Origin: Vulcanococcus sp. Clear-D1
GTDB lineage: Bacteria > Cyanobacteriota > Cyanobacteriia > PCC-6307 > Cyanobiaceae
DNA: 64,000 bases
Assembly (NCBI RefSeq): GCF_014654725.1
Contig: NZ_JACVZV010000015.1
Span: forward strand, 124,001 to 188,000
Direction: 5' to 3'
Under the pieces are notes generated by a model. That model ran no database searches and had not been told where the DNA came from. It saw only the letters and a program-made list of their open reading frames with translations. The position numbers were made by a program, and so were the translations under genes. Below are positions 10,910 through 20,954 of this stretch, in pieces (position 1 is the first letter of the stretch; every line of letters begins with the position of its first letter).

Positions 10910-11377
10910 CTAACAGCTGCTGATCCAGCGCATCAGTGCTTTTGCCGGATCGCTCAACTCCGCGATCGAGCCATAGAGCCAGTCCTGCCAGCCGTGTTGT
11001 GGCAATCCACTGAACACCATCAGATTGAGTGGATAGTCCTCTGAGTCGCTGCAGCGCCGAAAGTCGTCGCGATAGAGGAACACCGGCTTCCCCAGTGCGA
11101 TCGCCGCTCCCAGTTCCAGCATCACCCCTTCATCCGGGGGTGTTCCATTCACGATGGCCAGCAGAGCATCGGCATCGCGAACATCCTGGAGGTCCGCCTG
11201 GGCCACACGCCAGGCCCAACCAGGCTGCGCTAGATCCACCTGACCATTCCGACTGAACGGTTCCCAAACCTCCAGCCCGAGCTGCTCCAGTGCGGTGATG
11301 AAATCCGGCAACAGTCGCTCACGCCAGTGGGGTGAAAACCCGTAAGGAGAGGCCAGATACAACGTGGGCTGACCCAT
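10910..11377 (-). CDS. Nucleoside 2-deoxyribosyltransferase family protein
   Basis: LYLASPYGFSP, DADALLAIVNGTPPDEGVMLELGAAIALGKPVFLYRDD. Confidence 0.85.
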   Translation of the reverse strand: MGQPTLYLASPYGFSPHWRERLLPDFITALEQLGLEVWEPFSRNGQVDLAQPGWAWRVAQADLQDVRDADALLAIVNGTPPDEGVMLELGAAIALGKPVFLYRDDFRRCSDSEDYPLNLMVFSGLPQHGWQDWLYGSIAELSDPAKALMRWISSC

Positions 11378-11784
11378 CAGCGGGAAGCGCGATACAGCTG
11401 TTCATCCAGCGCCGCCGCGGCAGCGTTCTCCCAGGGAAACACAATCCATTCATCCGTTTCGGTCACATCCACCGCCTGCCACCACTGCGGCTCGACCTTG
11501 CTCAACCACACCATGGTTGTGCAGTTCTCGAGCTGGCGATAGGCCTCGAGGGTGAGCCCCGTTTCATACACATCGTCTACCAGCAGACAGCCCGGCTGTG
11601 CGCTGCTCAGTAGAGGCAGATCCAGGCGATGGCTGAGCGTCACCGCCAGGACCAAGCCGCCGCGGGGAATGCCATGCACGCCGCAGAACCGTTGGCCTTG
11701 GCAACGCTCCACGATCGTGTCGACCGCCCGCTCGAAATCCTGCCAAGTGAGTGTGCGCATCGTCGCCTCGATCGATGCGCACAC
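11377..11784 (-). CDS. Phosphoribosyltransferase (PRTase type I fold)
   Basis: FCGVHGIPRGGLVLAVTLSHR and PRPP loop CLLVDDVYETGLTL. Confidence 0.85.
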   Translation of the reverse strand: MCASIEATMRTLTWQDFERAVDTIVERCQGQRFCGVHGIPRGGLVLAVTLSHRLDLPLLSSAQPGCLLVDDVYETGLTLEAYRQLENCTTMVWLSKVEPQWWQAVDVTETDEWIVFPWENAAAAALDEQLYRASR

Positions 11785-12421: not shown

Positions 12422-15130
12422 TCAAAGCGCTTCGGCCCGTTGCGCTTCGTTGATCAGGCGTTGCACGCGATCCAGCAGTGATTCATTGCTGAGGCGGCTG
12501 TTCAACCGCTCGACGAGCAGTGGGAAGGCCAAGGGTCCTGGCCGGGCGATGCGCTCCACCCGCCAGGTGCACGATGCCATTCGCTCCAGCGCCGCCTGCA
12601 GCCGCTGCGCTTCCAGTTGCTCCTCGAGCACCTCGCGTTGGGCCTGCTCCAGCAGCAGGCTGCCGGGTTCGTGCTTCTGGAACACATCGAACAGCAGCGC
12701 CGCGCTGATCTGCAGCTGCCCACCTGTTTTGTTCTGCCCCGGCATCGCCTGGCTGATCAGGCCGCTCACCTGGGCGATGGCGCGGAAGCGGCGCCGGCAG
12801 AGCTCAGAAAAATTCAGCGCCTGCTGAAGGTCGCTCTCGAGGTTGCTGAGATCGAGCAGATCGTCGCCGTGTAGATCCAGCAGCTCTTCAAAGGGATAGG
12901 TCTTCGGGGCCAGGAGCTCGAAGCCGTAGTCGTTCACCGACACCGTGATCGTGCTGGCCTGCTGCCTCGCCAGCCGCCAGGCCCAGAGGAAGCCGATGCC
13001 TTCGTGCACGAAGCGCCCCTCGAAGGGATACACAAACAGATGGCTGCCTTCGCGGCTGCGGCACAGCTCCACCAGCAGCTGATCGCTGCGCGGTAGGCCG
13101 GAGAGGTTGGCCTGCCTCAGCAGCAGCGGTTCGAGCGCCTGCAGTTCCGGCGTGTCGAGCCTGGCTTCGCCATCGAGGGCGCGGGCGCAGCGGTCCACTT
13201 CCTGGCGCAGATGGGAGCTGAGCAGATCCGACAGCGCCATCTGTCCGCCAGCCCAGGCCGGCACGGTGGAGCTTTTCTTGCTCGTGGCCTTCACCTGGGC
13301 CGTCATTTCCCGCAGCCGCACGAATTCCAGCTGGCGGCCGGCGAAGAAAAACACATCCCCCGGCTTGAGCCGTCCGATGAAGGCCTCCTCCACATGGCCA
13401 ATCACCGCGCCGCGCACGAAGCGCACGGTCACGGATCGATCGGCTGTGATCGTGCCGATGTTGAAGCGATGCAGCCGGGCGATTGTTTTGTCGAGAACGC
13501 GGAAGCGCCAGGGTTCTGCGGGAGCGGCCGGCTCGTCGTCGTGCAGGCGGCAGCGCACCAGTTTGCGGTAGCGGGGATAGGCGCTGAGGCATTGGCCGCC
13601 GTGCTCCAGAAAATCGAGGCACCACTGCCATTGGGCGTCGGTGAGGTGGCGAAAGCTCCAGCACTGGCGCACCGTGGCCAGCTCCTCCTCCGGTTGGAAA
13701 CCGGCTCCGCAGGCCAGGCTGGTGAGGTGCTGCAGCAGCACATCGAGGGGAAGCTGCGGTGGTCGGCGGTGCTCCACCAGGCCGTTCTCCAGGCCCCGCC
13801 GCATGGCGCTCACCTCAAGCAGCTCAAGGGCGTTGGTGGGCATAAACAGCACCTGGGAGGTGCCTCCCGGGCAGTGGGCGCTGCGGCCGGCCCGCTGCAG
13901 CAGCCGCGCCAGGTTTTTGGCGCTGCCGATCTGCACCACCCGCTCCACGGGCTGGAAGTCGACCCCCAGATCCAGAGAACTGGTGCACACCACCCAGCGC
14001 AGCTCCCCAGCTTTCACGCGGGCTTCGATCGCTTCACGCTCGGCGCGGTCGATGGCGCTGTGGTGAAGCGCCAGACAATCTTCCATCTCCGGGCAGGCAA
14101 AGCGCAGGCACTGGTGCCACCGCTCGGCCTGGTTGCGGGTGTTGGTGAACAGCAGCGTGCTCACCCCGGGCTCCAGTCCCGCCACCAGCTCCTCATACAT
14201 GCGCAGCCCCAGGTGACCGCCCCAGGGGAAACCATCGATCGTGTCGGGCAGGAGCGAACGGATCGCCGTTGCCCGCTGGATGTCGGCGGTGATGATCCGC
14301 GGGGTTGTCGGTAGGCCGAGGGCCGCACGGGCGGCTTCGTCGAGATTGCCGATGGTGGCACTGATGGCCCAGGTGCGCAGCATCGGGCGATGGCGCCGCA
14401 GCCAGCTGAGGCAGAGCTCCGTTTGCGAGCCGCGTTTACTCCCCATCAGCTCGTGCCATTCATCGAGCACGACCGCCTGCAGCTGGGCGAACAGCTCCGG
14501 TGCCTTGGCGTTTGCCAGCAGCACGCTGAGGGATTCCGGCGTGGTGATCAGGATCTCGGGCGGTGTGCGCAGCTGTTTGCTGCGCTCATGGGTGCTGGTA
14601 TCGCCATTGCGAATCGCCACCCGCAGCGGCCAACCCATCGCCGCAATCGGTTGTTCAATCGCCAGGGCCAGATCACGGCTAAGGGCCCGCAGCGGTGTGA
14701 TCACCAGCAGGCGCAGGCCGCGGGAGGGAGTGGTGGTGCGACGGGCTCTGCGGCGCGGCTTGGTTTCAGCGTTCTGGAGCTCAACTCCCTGGGGGGCCAC
14801 TGGCTCCGGAAGCGCTGGGAGGACGCGCTCACACTGATATCCGGTTTTCTGTGCATCCTGTTCATAACCCGAGGCGTTGGCGCTTGCGTGCATGGCCTCG
14901 CTTGCTGCGCTGCTCGGCGGCTGTGGTTGTTGGGTTGGCTGTTGTTCCGCGGCCAACAGTTCCGCGATCGGTCCCATCACGGCGGCGTAGGTCTTGCCGG
15001 AGCCGGTGGGGACCTGTAGCAGCCCGCTCTCGCCCGCCAGGTAGGCCCGCCAGCACTGGCGCTGGAAGGCCATCGGCGTCCAGCCTTGCTGAGTGAACCA
15101 GGCCTCGATCGGCGCCAGGGCCTCGCTCAC
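12422..15130 (-). CDS. Ligase-associated DEXH-box helicase (Lhr-like)
   Basis: LLQVPTGSGKTYAAVMG, VVLDEWHEL, AISATIGN, LVCTSSLDLGVDFQPVERVVQIGSAKNLARLLQRAGRSAH; GTG start overlaps ligase stop (GTGA). Confidence 0.92.
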   Translation of the reverse strand: MSEALAPIEAWFTQQGWTPMAFQRQCWRAYLAGESGLLQVPTGSGKTYAAVMGPIAELLAAEQQPTQQPQPPSSAASEAMHASANASGYEQDAQKTGYQCERVLPALPEPVAPQGVELQNAETKPRRRARRTTTPSRGLRLLVITPLRALSRDLALAIEQPIAAMGWPLRVAIRNGDTSTHERSKQLRTPPEILITTPESLSVLLANAKAPELFAQLQAVVLDEWHELMGSKRGSQTELCLSWLRRHRPMLRTWAISATIGNLDEAARAALGLPTTPRIITADIQRATAIRSLLPDTIDGFPWGGHLGLRMYEELVAGLEPGVSTLLFTNTRNQAERWHQCLRFACPEMEDCLALHHSAIDRAEREAIEARVKAGELRWVVCTSSLDLGVDFQPVERVVQIGSAKNLARLLQRAGRSAHCPGGTSQVLFMPTNALELLEVSAMRRGLENGLVEHRRPPQLPLDVLLQHLTSLACGAGFQPEEELATVRQCWSFRHLTDAQWQWCLDFLEHGGQCLSAYPRYRKLVRCRLHDDEPAAPAEPWRFRVLDKTIARLHRFNIGTITADRSVTVRFVRGAVIGHVEEAFIGRLKPGDVFFFAGRQLEFVRLREMTAQVKATSKKSSTVPAWAGGQMALSDLLSSHLRQEVDRCARALDGEARLDTPELQALEPLLLRQANLSGLPRSDQLLVELCRSREGSHLFVYPFEGRFVHEGIGFLWAWRLARQQASTITVSVNDYGFELLAPKTYPFEELLDLHGDDLLDLSNLESDLQQALNFSELCRRRFRAIAQVSGLISQAMPGQNKTGGQLQISAALLFDVFQKHEPGSLLLEQAQREVLEEQLEAQRLQAALERMASCTWRVERIARPGPLAFPLLVERLNSRLSNESLLDRVQRLINEAQRAEAL

Positions 15131-16797
15131 GGCTGCTGCTCCATCAGGGCCATGGCGTTGGCCAGGCTGTCGGCCTCGCTGGCGGGTTTGTCGGTGCGCC
15201 AGCGGCTGATGCGCGGGAAGCGCACGGCGAAGCCACATTTGTGGCGTTTCGAGGGTTGGATGCCCTCGAACGCGAGTTCAAACACCTGCAACGGCTCCAC
15301 CGCCCGCACAGGCCCGAACCGCTCGGTGGTGTGCGCGCGGATCCAGCGATCGAGCTCGCGGATCTCGGCATTGTCGAGGCCGGAGTAGGCCTTGGCGAAG
15401 GTCACCAACTCCCCGTCGCTGTTCCAGAGGCCAAAGCTGTAGTCGGTGTAGAGGTTGGCGCGCTTACCGCTACCTGCCTGGGCATACAGCAGCACGGCAT
15501 CCAGCCGCAATGGCTCGAGTTTGTGCTTCCACCAGTGGCCGCGTTTGCGCCCCACCAGATAGGGGGAGTCGAGCGCCTTGAGCATCAGCCCCTCCGCCCG
15601 CTGCCCACGGGCCTGATCGCGCAGATGATCCAAGTCGCCCCAGCTCCGCAGCGTCTGGGTTGGGGAGAGTCGCATGCGGCCCTTCCCCTCGGCGCCCTGC
15701 ACGTCCTGCCAGTTTTCATAGAGCTGCTCCAGCTGCTCCCGCCGACGCTGCAGCGGTTGCTGGCGCAGGTCTGTCCCCTGATCTTCCAGCAGGTCGTAGG
15801 CCACGAAAGCGGCCGGGCAGTCGCGCTGCAGGCTGCGGCTCGGTGCTTTGCGCCCCAGCCTTCGCTGCAGGCTGGTAAAGGCTTCCGGTGTTTCGGCATC
15901 GCCGTGCCACACGATCACCTCCCCATCCAGCGCCGTTCCCTGAGGTAACTGCTCCGCCAGGGCGATCAGCTCAGGGAATGCCTCATTGATCAGCTCCTCG
16001 CCGCGGCTCCACAGGCTGCAGCCGCCGGAGCGGTGGATGAGCTGGCCGCGGATGCCATCCCATTTCCACTCCAGTTGCCAACCTTCCGGTGGCGTCTGCT
16101 CCAGTTGGCCGGCCTCAAGGGGGCTAGCCAGAAAGAAGGGATACGGCCGGGCAGACAGGCTCTCGCCCTGGGCATCAGCGGCCGTGAGCTCTGCAAACGC
16201 CGCGGCACTGGGCGTGAATCCACCCATCAGCCGGTGCGCCACCAATGCTTCATCCAGTTCGGCGCTCTGGGCCAGGGCCCGGGTCACCAGTCCCGTGGAG
16301 ACTCCCACTCGGAATCCCCCGCTGAGCAGCTTGTTCACCAGCAGCAGCTGATCTGGCGGCAGGCTGCGCCAACAGGCCTGCACTGCTTTGGTCTGTTTCT
16401 CCCCATCCAGAGCCGCCAACTGAGGCAGCCGTTCGTCCATCCACAGGGCCAGGGGATCTTCAAAGGTGACGCGGCCAGGGTTGCTATCCCAGCGGCTTGG
16501 CTCGCCCGTGCCGTCGGCTCGCTGTTGCCACAGCAACGCCACCGTTTCTGCCGAATCGCCAACCTGGGCGTGGCAGGCCTCAAACAACCACTCCGGCAGC
16601 TCCGTACCCGCCAGGCAGATCTCCCGCAGGCGCCGGCCGGTGATCAGGCGACGGCGCCGCTTGCCCAATAGCAGCGCCAGAGCCCAGGCGGCATCGGCGG
16701 GAGCCGCACTGAGGAAATAGGCCTGCAGCGCCTCCAGCTTGGCGCTCGTGCTGCCGGTGCCATCCAGCTGACGGAAAAGGGCGGCGAACGCTTGCAT
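15127..16797 (-). CDS. ATP-dependent DNA ligase
   Basis: Nucleotidyltransferase motif EWKWDGIRGQLI, ALDGEVIVW, AEGLMLKALDSPYLVGRKRGHWWKHK. Confidence 0.95.
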   Translation of the reverse strand: MQAFAALFRQLDGTGSTSAKLEALQAYFLSAAPADAAWALALLLGKRRRRLITGRRLREICLAGTELPEWLFEACHAQVGDSAETVALLWQQRADGTGEPSRWDSNPGRVTFEDPLALWMDERLPQLAALDGEKQTKAVQACWRSLPPDQLLLVNKLLSGGFRVGVSTGLVTRALAQSAELDEALVAHRLMGGFTPSAAAFAELTAADAQGESLSARPYPFFLASPLEAGQLEQTPPEGWQLEWKWDGIRGQLIHRSGGCSLWSRGEELINEAFPELIALAEQLPQGTALDGEVIVWHGDAETPEAFTSLQRRLGRKAPSRSLQRDCPAAFVAYDLLEDQGTDLRQQPLQRRREQLEQLYENWQDVQGAEGKGRMRLSPTQTLRSWGDLDHLRDQARGQRAEGLMLKALDSPYLVGRKRGHWWKHKLEPLRLDAVLLYAQAGSGKRANLYTDYSFGLWNSDGELVTFAKAYSGLDNAEIRELDRWIRAHTTERFGPVRAVEPLQVFELAFEGIQPSKRHKCGFAVRFPRISRWRTDKPASEADSLANAMALMEQQP

Positions 16798-17870
16798 CAG
16801 TTCGCTGGAGAACTGGCTGCGATGGCAGCCGCCTCAGCGCCTGCGGGTGTGGCCTCGTCGTCGTCGAAGCGTTCGGCCTCGAAGTGGCCTTCCAGCGGTT
16901 CGGCGCTGATGCCCTCCACCTCCTGCAGATAGCGCGCCAGCACGCTGCTCTGGCCGTGGGTCACGTACACCTGCTGCGCCTGGCTGTCTTTCACGCTCTG
17001 CAGCAGGCCGCCCCAATCGGCGTGGTCGCTCATCACAAAGCCGCGGCCGTAGCCGCGCCGCCGCCGGGCGCCGCGAACCGCCATCCAGCCGCTCACGAAG
17101 CCGTTCTGAGCTTTGGCGAAGCGCCCCAAACCGCGGCTGCGGTGGGCCGCCGGGGGGGCGATCAGCAGGCGGCCAGCCAGATCGGCGCCGCGCTCCAGTT
17201 GCGTCAGCGGCCGGGTTGGCGGCATGGCCACTCCGGAATCCCGGTAAGGCCCCATCAGCCGGTCAACGGCGCCATGCAGCAGTACCTCGTCGCCGACGCC
17301 GAGGCGATGCAACTCCGCCAGCACTCGCTGCGCTTTGCCGAAGGCATAACAGAACAGCACCGATGGCCGCTCGGGAGCGGTGCGCCACCACTCGAGGATC
17401 TCTGCCGCCACCTCCGCGCCGCTCTGCCAGCGGTAAATCGGCAGGCCGAAGGTGGCTTCGCTGATCAGAACATCCGCCTGCACCGGCTCAAACGGCGTAC
17501 AGCTCGGATCGGCGCAACGTTTGTAATCGCCGCTCACCAACCAGCTCTCGCCACCGGCCTCCAAGCGGATCTGGGCACTGCCCAGCACATGGCCGGCTGA
17601 ATGAAACGACACCCGCGCATCACCGATGCGATGGAGTTGGCCGTAGTCCACCGGCAGCAGCTGGATCTCGGCGCCGAGCCGCTCCCGCAGGATTCCTTCG
17701 CTCGCCCCGATCGCCCAGTACTCGCCGCAGCCCGGCCGGGCGTGGTCGGCATGGGCGTGGGTGATCAAGGCGCGCGGCACGGGCCGCCAGGGATCGATCC
17801 AGGCGCGCGCTGCCGGGCAGTAGAGCCCTTCCGGGCTGAGCTGCAGCAGGCCGCCTGGGGCGAGGGGCAT
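16797..17870 (-). CDS. Ligase-associated DNA exonuclease (metallo-beta-lactamase/beta-CASP fold)
   Basis: THAHADHARPGCGEYWAIG, HSAGHVLGSAQI, VSGDYKRCADPSC, YVTHGQSSVLARYL. Confidence 0.92.
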   Translation of the reverse strand: MPLAPGGLLQLSPEGLYCPAARAWIDPWRPVPRALITHAHADHARPGCGEYWAIGASEGILRERLGAEIQLLPVDYGQLHRIGDARVSFHSAGHVLGSAQIRLEAGGESWLVSGDYKRCADPSCTPFEPVQADVLISEATFGLPIYRWQSGAEVAAEILEWWRTAPERPSVLFCYAFGKAQRVLAELHRLGVGDEVLLHGAVDRLMGPYRDSGVAMPPTRPLTQLERGADLAGRLLIAPPAAHRSRGLGRFAKAQNGFVSGWMAVRGARRRRGYGRGFVMSDHADWGGLLQSVKDSQAQQVYVTHGQSSVLARYLQEVEGISAEPLEGHFEAERFDDDEATPAGAEAAAIAASSPAN

Positions 17871-17998
17871 CAGCGGTGGGGCGTGTTGTGTGGGTTCGGG
17901 ACTGAATCATGACCAGCCGCGTTGCACCTCTGCGTCGCCCGGTTGACGCTTGCGGCCACCGTCTCTAGCCAGGGGGTGAACCCCTGCGGCCCGCCGCC

Positions 17999-19081
17999 AT
18001 GGCCCTCAACGATTTTCGCGATGAACTGGCGGCTACTGCTGCGGCCCTGGCAACACCGGGCACAGGGCTGCTGGCAGCCGATGAATCCACCGGCACGATC
18101 GGCAAGCGCTTCGATGCCATTGGCCTCGAGAACACCGAAGAGAACCGACGTGCCTACCGCAGCCTGCTGGCCACCACGGAGGGCCTGGGCGACCACATCT
18201 CCGGCGTGATCCTCTACGAGGAAACGCTCTTTCAAGACAGCACGGCCGAGGTGGGAGGCGCCCCGATCGTGGAGCTCTTCCAGAAGCAGGGGATCGTGCC
18301 CGGGATCAAGGTGGATCAGGGGGTGGAACCCCTCGCCGGTGGTGTGGTGGGCGAGAGCTGGTGCACCGGCCTCAAGGGGCTGGGCGAGCGCGCTGCTCGC
18401 TACTACGCCCGCGGCGCCCGTTTCGCCAAATGGCGGGCTGTTCTGCAGATCAGCGGTAATGGGGCGCCTTCCGAGCTCGCCGTGCGCGAGAACGCCTGGG
18501 GTCTGGCTCGCTACGCCCGCACCGTGCAGGAGCACGGTCTGGTGCCGATCGTGGAGCCTGAGATTCTGATGGATGGTGAGCACGACATCACCACCACCGC
18601 CTCGGTGCAGGAATGGGTGCTGCGCACCACCTATGAGGCCCTGGCGGTGAATGGTGTGTTTCTCGAGGGCAGCTTGCTCAAACCCTCGATGACGTGCGCC
18701 GGGGCCGATTGCCCCCAGCAACCCTCCGCTGAAGAGGTGGGTGCCTTCACTGTGCGCACCCTCAGCCGCACGGTGCCGGCCGCCGTACCCGCCATCTTGT
18801 TTTTGAGCGGCGGCCTCAGTGAGGAGGACGCCAGCCTATGTCTCAACGCCGTCAACCAGGCCGCAGCCCAGGGCTATGCGCCCTGGCACCTCGGTTTTTC
18901 CTATGGCCGAGCCCTGCAGCACTCCTGCATCAAACATTGGGGCGGCAGTGATGTGGCGGCGGGCCAGGCTGCGCTGATGGCGCGCGCCCGTGCCAATGGA
19001 GCGGCCAGCCAGGGCACGTACGTGGCCGGTTCTGAGCCGTCGGATGACGCCAGCTTGTTTGTGGCCAACTACAGCTACTAG
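17999..19081 (+). CDS. Class I fructose-bisphosphate aldolase
   Basis: [66 protein letters not shown]. Confidence 0.95.
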
Positions 19082-20063: not shown

Positions 20064-20954
20064 ATGCAGGATGGCGTGAGCCTAGGCATCCGTTTGGCAG
20101 AGCTCCGCATCGCCATCGCCGGAGATCTGCATGGGCAATGGGACGGGGTGGATGAACAGCTGTTGGCGCAGCTCGCCCCCGACGCCTTGCTGGTGGTGGG
20201 CGACCTCAGTGATGGTCAGGCCCGCATCCCGGCGCGTTTGGCCCAGTTGCCCCTGCCGCTCGCCTGCATCCTGGGCAACCACGACACCGGCCGTGATGCC
20301 AGTGGCCGCACCCTGCAACTCCAACTCGACGCCCTGGGCAGCCGCCACTGCGGCTGGGATCTGCGCGAGCTGGAGCCCCCTGGCCTCGCCGTGGTGGGCG
20401 GCCGGCCGGCCAGTGCCGGCGGCGGTTTTCACCTCAACCAGGCGGCGCAGGCCGTATTCGGACCCGTCACGCTGCAGGAGTCGGCGGCGCGAATCACAGC
20501 GGCGGCCCTGCGCGCTGATCCAAGCCTGCCCCTGATCCTGTTGGCCCATAGCGGCCCCAGTGGCCTCGGCAGTGCTGCCGCCGACCCCTGCGGCCGCGAT
20601 TGGAAAGCACCGGCTTGCGATTGGGGCGATCAGGATCTGGCCCTGGCGATCGACCAAATCAGACGCCACAGGCCTGTGCCGCTGGTGGTGTTTGGCCACA
20701 TGCATCACAAGCTCAAGCGCGGCCAGGGCGACCGCCTCAGCTATTGCATGGATCGTGCTGGTACCGCCTATCTCAACACCGCCTTCGTGCCGCGCCACAG
20801 CCACGATGAGCAAGGCCGGCCGCTGCGCCATTTCAGCTGGGTGGAGCTGCGCGGGGGCCAGCTGCATGAGATCAGCCATCGCTGGTACGCCCCTGATGGC
20901 GCCCTGCGTTACCGCCAGACCCTGATGCGGGCCCCGGAGCTGCAGCCGTGCTGA
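20064..20954 (+). CDS. Metallophosphoesterase, cyanobacterial/plant type
   Basis: IAGDLHGQWD, LLVVGDLSDG, LGNHDTGRD, LLAHSGPSGLG, VFGHMHHKLKRG. Confidence 0.85.
   Translation: MQDGVSLGIRLAELRIAIAGDLHGQWDGVDEQLLAQLAPDALLVVGDLSDGQARIPARLAQLPLPLACILGNHDTGRDASGRTLQLQLDALGSRHCGWDLRELEPPGLAVVGGRPASAGGGFHLNQAAQAVFGPVTLQESAARITAAALRADPSLPLILLAHSGPSGLGSAAADPCGRDWKAPACDWGDQDLALAIDQIRRHRPVPLVVFGHMHHKLKRGQGDRLSYCMDRAGTAYLNTAFVPRHSHDEQGRPLRHFSWVELRGGQLHEISHRWYAPDGALRYRQTLMRAPELQPC

Follow-up and report, generated by a model that had tools for sequence, protein, structure and literature searches.

The nuclease, ligase and helicase genes that lie together in the window (the whole 64,000-nt stretch analysed here, positions 124001-188000 of contig 15 in a genome of 2.96 Mb in 39 contigs) very probably represent three members (nuclease, ligase and Lhr-core helicase) of the known set of four genes, EXO/LIG/LHR-Core/MPE, whose fourth gene, pdeM, is found 33.4 kb away; the four products would serve a single repair pathway, and contiguity of the genes would not be needed for the set to persist. 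The locus is an ordinary and probably functional member of this repair set from a freshwater cyanobacterium, in a dispersed layout. Across the family Cyanobiaceae the four genes are, in raw counts, retained or lost as a group, including where they no longer lie side by side. Such joint retention of non-neighbouring genes provides independent genomic support for placing PdeM in one pathway with the nuclease (N), ligase (L) and helicase (H) proteins, and truncation of the operon should not be read as gene loss. The set is known from Pseudomonas putida, in which the EXO/LIG/LHR-Core/MPE cluster was described by Ejaz and Shuman (2018, 2019; as related in PMC10140301, PMC7437997 and PMC8301817). 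All four families of that cluster are present in the window genome, which differs in the distance between its MPE and helicase genes.

The three genes of the window

The families of the set correspond to the curated NCBIfam models TIGR04120-04123, and we assigned the nuclease, ligase and helicase by the cut-offs of TIGR04122, TIGR04120 and TIGR04121, respectively. Each gene product scored above its cut-off (Table 1), bearing out the original prediction that three minus-strand genes of ligase-associated families stand side by side. The ligase exhibits DNA-binding, adenylation and C-terminal domains (Pfam PF04675, PF01068 and PF04679), and its closest named relative is that of Vulcanococcus sp. 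Con.Enr.2019-1 (92% identical). No Pfam match was obtained for the nuclease at 0.001; its HAHADH motif is nevertheless intact. The helicase contains the Pfam domains DEAD, Helicase_C, WH_Lhr and DEAD_assoc, together with the catalytic motifs GSGKT, DEWH, SAT and QRAGRS. It is a core-only protein that ends with DEAD_assoc and does not have the long Lhr C-terminal region, as expected of a member of the set. Its best relative in the PDB is 5v9x, which we take to be the mycobacterial Lhr helicase. Between motifs I and Ia the protein also carries a low-complexity, Q/P/A/R-rich insert of about 75 residues (residues ~60-134, window 14729-14953), which is shorter or absent in most relatives as judged from the profile alignment.

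Table 1. Features of the repair set in the window genome. Positions are those of the window unless a contig is named.
Feature	Position	Strand	Details
Ligase-associated MBL/beta-CASP-type nuclease (EXO/LNE), first gene of the set	16797-17870	-	357 aa; TIGR04122, 435.8 bits (cut-off 325); HAHADH motif
Nuclease/ligase junction, TGATG	16795-16799	-	1-nt overlap; TGA stop and ATG start share one base (read from the sequence)
ATP-dependent DNA ligase, 'cisplatin damage response' family	15127-16797	-	556 aa; TIGR04120, 575.9 bits (cut-off 400); EWKWDG motif at 243
Ligase/helicase junction, GTGA	15127-15130	-	4-nt overlap; helicase start and ligase stop (read from the sequence)
Lhr-core DEXH helicase	12422-15130	-	GTG start, 902 aa; TIGR04121, 1039.6 bits (cut-off 850)
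pdeM (PdeM/MPE metallophosphoesterase)	contig 15:102404-103060, outside the window	-	218 aa from ATG; TIGR04123, 178.2 bits (cut-off 150)

Overlaps of 4 nt had been described at both gene junctions. This was correct for the ligase/helicase junction, while the nuclease and ligase genes overlap by a single nucleotide in TGATG rather than by ATGA. The GTGA overlap places the helicase start at the GTG codon, from which the protein opens with MSEALAPIEAWF; the 938-aa open reading frame beginning with the ATG at 15238 is merely the longest possible reading. The accompanying suggestion that the nuclease, ligase and helicase genes are translationally coupled appears likely, and the three proteins would be translated from one message.

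Upstream of the nuclease, a divergent gene, presumably coding for a class I fructose-bisphosphate aldolase, starts at 17999. The 128-nt gap between the two genes (17871-17998) contained no match to the LexA/SOS consensus with up to two mismatches; as this pattern matched 170 times in the window as a whole against 143 expected, the scan carries little information. On the other side of the cassette, overlapping minus-strand genes resembling those for nucleoside 2-deoxyribosyltransferase and phosphoribosyltransferase (10910-11784) are kept near the 3' side of the helicase gene in the genus.

The displaced phosphoesterase gene

The original prediction described the cassette as a three-gene version with no phosphoesterase partner, leaving open whether the phosphoesterase was lost, encoded elsewhere or replaced. 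A search of the whole genome with the TIGR04123 profile gave one match above cut-off, on the minus strand of contig 15 (102416-103018), thereby settling the matter in favour of the second option: the gene has not been lost but lies at another site. The absence of a partner thus holds within the window and not for the genome. The matching gene, pdeM, lies about 20.9-21.6 kb before the first base of the window and could therefore not be seen from the window alone. It is found on the same contig and strand as the nuclease, ligase and helicase genes and continues their order (N-L-H, then M), downstream of the helicase gene. The pdeM reading frame is intact, with no stops, and its product contains the metallophosphoesterase motifs ADLHLGK, GDLIHS, GGNHD, SHEP and GHVHP. 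The only solved relatives that we found, and hence its best PDB matches, are structures of the P. putida nuclease MPE (6nvp/6nvo, 1.3e-27).

Since PdeM is encoded elsewhere in the genome, the three-gene version was not borne out; the locus belongs to a four-gene set with one displaced member, and it looks like a three-gene version because its operon is dispersed and the edge of the window cuts pdeM off. A genuine three-gene version working without the phosphoesterase would agree with the lack of a TIGR04123 gene within the window, and one other genome (G043, see below) shows that N-L-H can exist without PdeM. However, the presence in the same genome of an intact PdeM of 218 aa scoring above the cut-off makes this reading highly improbable. 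The usual layout of the set, which does not define it, is a contiguous four-gene operon. Here that layout is absent, only N-L-H being contiguous. As four-gene contiguity is also missing in most Cyanobiaceae genera, it does not define the set in this family.

We also considered a phosphoesterase gene much closer to the cassette. The plus-strand gene at 20064-20954, located 2.2 kb upstream of the nuclease gene, codes for a calcineurin-like metallophosphoesterase (PF00149) and sits in a neighbourhood that is kept in the genus. It belongs to another family, however, matching TIGR04168 only (344 bits, cut-off 200) and not TIGR04123, and is separated from the nuclease gene by two other genes and by its opposite orientation, while a true PdeM exists in the genome. 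For its family membership we rejected this protein as a PdeM substitute, and there is next to no chance that it has replaced PdeM.

The start of pdeM overlaps the stop of a glutathione-S-transferase (GST)-like gene. This pair of genes (contig 15:102404-103650; 1489-2735 of locus L001) was also found at loci L004, L018, L020, L027, L030 and L155, and so recurs in three genera.

Co-occurrence, concerted loss and a proposed pathway

The order was sampled with 150 genomes, all from the Cyanobiaceae, and each was searched for the four families. The nuclease, ligase and helicase were found together in 117 of the 150 genomes, and PdeM scored above cut-off in 115 of these 117, both raw counts that ignore kinship; none of the four families rose above its cut-off in the remaining 33. 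Two genomes depart from this pattern. In G147 a contig end accounts for the missing gene, as the match to the helicase profile breaks off at position 660 of 804. The other (G043; L154, contig 14:106000-121000) has intact nuclease, ligase and helicase genes, with no pdeM after its GST-like gene, suggesting that PdeM may not be needed, at least for a time. The stretch that follows the GST-like gene in place of pdeM is presumably a fragment of a Rad52-family (annealing-protein) gene. The operon had been attributed to several proteobacteria, where it is indeed known. That range was understated, as the operon has already been reported in Prochlorococcus marinus (PMC10140301) and the same families occur in the 117 Cyanobiaceae genomes.

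Layout differed between the genera. In genus g2, whose genomes measure 1.5-1.7 Mb, the four genes N-L-H-M are contiguous in 32 of 34 genomes, the other two being cut by contig ends. The window's genus does not keep them contiguous: M lies 4.3 to 63 kb from the helicase gene, on the same strand in 10/10 genomes. In g9 and most of g8, M is separated by 90-700 kb or lies on a different contig, and it is frequently found on the opposite strand. Nor is N-L-H itself always compact: both the N-L and the L-H gaps are shorter than 500 nt in 71/117 genomes.

Traces of loss were found in three genomes. G004, of genus g5, is devoid of the nuclease, ligase and helicase, and of pdeM it has no more than the last ~50 codons, which are 84% identical to those of G020. 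Since this remnant occupies the syntenic, unlinked site, both flanks of which align at 82-89%, N-L-H and pdeM were probably lost at unlinked sites; among the g5 congeners, pdeM lies 6-370 kb from the helicase gene. In G131 (L161, contig 1:143000-150000), the first two thirds of the nuclease gene run directly into the 3' end of the MPE gene, a fusion that reads as the scar of a single deletion through a contiguous four-gene operon. G068 retains a broken MPE gene. Together with the co-occurrence, this concerted loss supports the view that the four genes act as one functional unit.

An alternative is that PdeM has left the pathway to work with the GST-like gene, leaving the N-L-H operon to act alone, as the overlap of the two genes and the recurrence of the pair in three genera might suggest. 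We consider this unlikely, for the retention of pdeM follows that of N, L and H in 115/117 genomes, pdeM decays at an unlinked site where N, L and H are gone (G004), and G043 keeps the GST-like gene though its pdeM is gone.

The biochemistry of the family members has been reviewed (PMC7437997, PMC8301817). Lhr-core is a 3'-to-5' translocase on single-stranded DNA (PMC7437997). MPE is described as having an Mre11-like active site, and the title of reference 8 of the same paper calls it a Mn-dependent ssDNA endonuclease. A neighbouring MPE gene was counted for bLhr in 276 of 319 bacterial genomes (PMC8301817). In a single pathway of all four proteins, the helicase would, at a lesion, travel along the single strand in the 3'-to-5' direction and open the duplex, PdeM and the beta-CASP nuclease would trim the damaged strand or its ends, a polymerase would fill in, and the ATP-dependent ligase would seal. 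PdeM would be supplied from a separate transcript, so that contiguity of the operon would not be needed to maintain the set. The damage targeted by the operon is not known (PMC10140301). By analogy, the likeliest substrates would be crosslinks or further helix-blocking lesions, among them those caused by UV light or photo-oxidation. The mycobacterial lhr-nei2 crosslink-repair operon encodes a related Lhr helicase core, and loss of mycobacterial Lhr causes sensitivity to three interstrand crosslinkers (PMC11323726). In contrast to the core-only helicase of the window, the mycobacterial Lhr is full-length with a C-terminal tetramerisation domain, and it is accompanied by Nei2 instead of a ligase, a nuclease and MPE.

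Origin of the dispersed layout

Relatives in Proteobacteria and Gemmatimonadota, retrieved with the window ligase, have their genes in the order N-L-H-M on one strand. The same arrangement occurs at L123, a cyanobacterial locus where the stop of the helicase gene overlaps the start of the MPE gene by ATGA. Because these loci keep that order, the dispersed layout is most simply taken as derived. The contiguous g2 operon was not taken to prove the ancestral arrangement in cyanobacteria, L123 and the proteobacterial loci being used instead, since the branch of the g2 ligase is very long (2.58) and of unsure placement, and this ligase may be fast-evolving or re-acquired. The g2 proteins are divergent, the ligase being 44% identical.

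In three close relatives (G011, G102 and G106), as in the window genome, a nucleoside-deoxyribosyltransferase-like gene lies on the helicase side and a GST-like gene on the PdeM side, and the phosphoribosyltransferase-like gene on the helicase side is common to the window genome, G011 and G106. The interval between the helicase and PdeM genes measures only 4-8 kb in these three genomes. The window genome and G139 have many further genes in common within an interval of some 33 kb. These arrangements fit a growth of the interval by insertion, relocation being the alternative. Tentatively, and with somewhat less than even confidence, we propose that in Cyanobiaceae the four-gene operon was dismantled stepwise, by intergenic insertions and then by relocation, under strict joint retention, and that G043 may be a natural PdeM-free variant. 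If so, the family would serve as a natural experiment to find out which components of the pathway depend on being expressed together.

In a sample of the phylum, the ligase was found in 29 genomes, 25 of them in the window's family and 4 elsewhere. In a ligase tree that was midpoint-rooted with few outgroups, the Cyanobiaceae copies, g2 apart, grouped together and away from three other cyanobacterial copies. The family may plausibly have acquired its set horizontally. The ATP-dependent ligase was reported among genes lost early in Prochlorococcus (PMC3940434, with the ligase in Table 6), and a ligase was reported within an LLI-specific segment (PMC6102989), both of which are consistent with a patchy history.

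Further differences in layout were observed. In several genera the ligase and helicase genes are separated by a spacer whose length stays close to 3.8 kb (L136 9700-13430, L134, and many g8, g14 and g17 genomes); neither an RNA gene nor a single long gene was found in it, and in L136 it holds opposite-strand genes resembling those for a spermidine-synthase-like membrane protein and DUF proteins. In L105 the set is rearranged differently, with the MPE gene directly upstream of the nuclease gene on the same strand.
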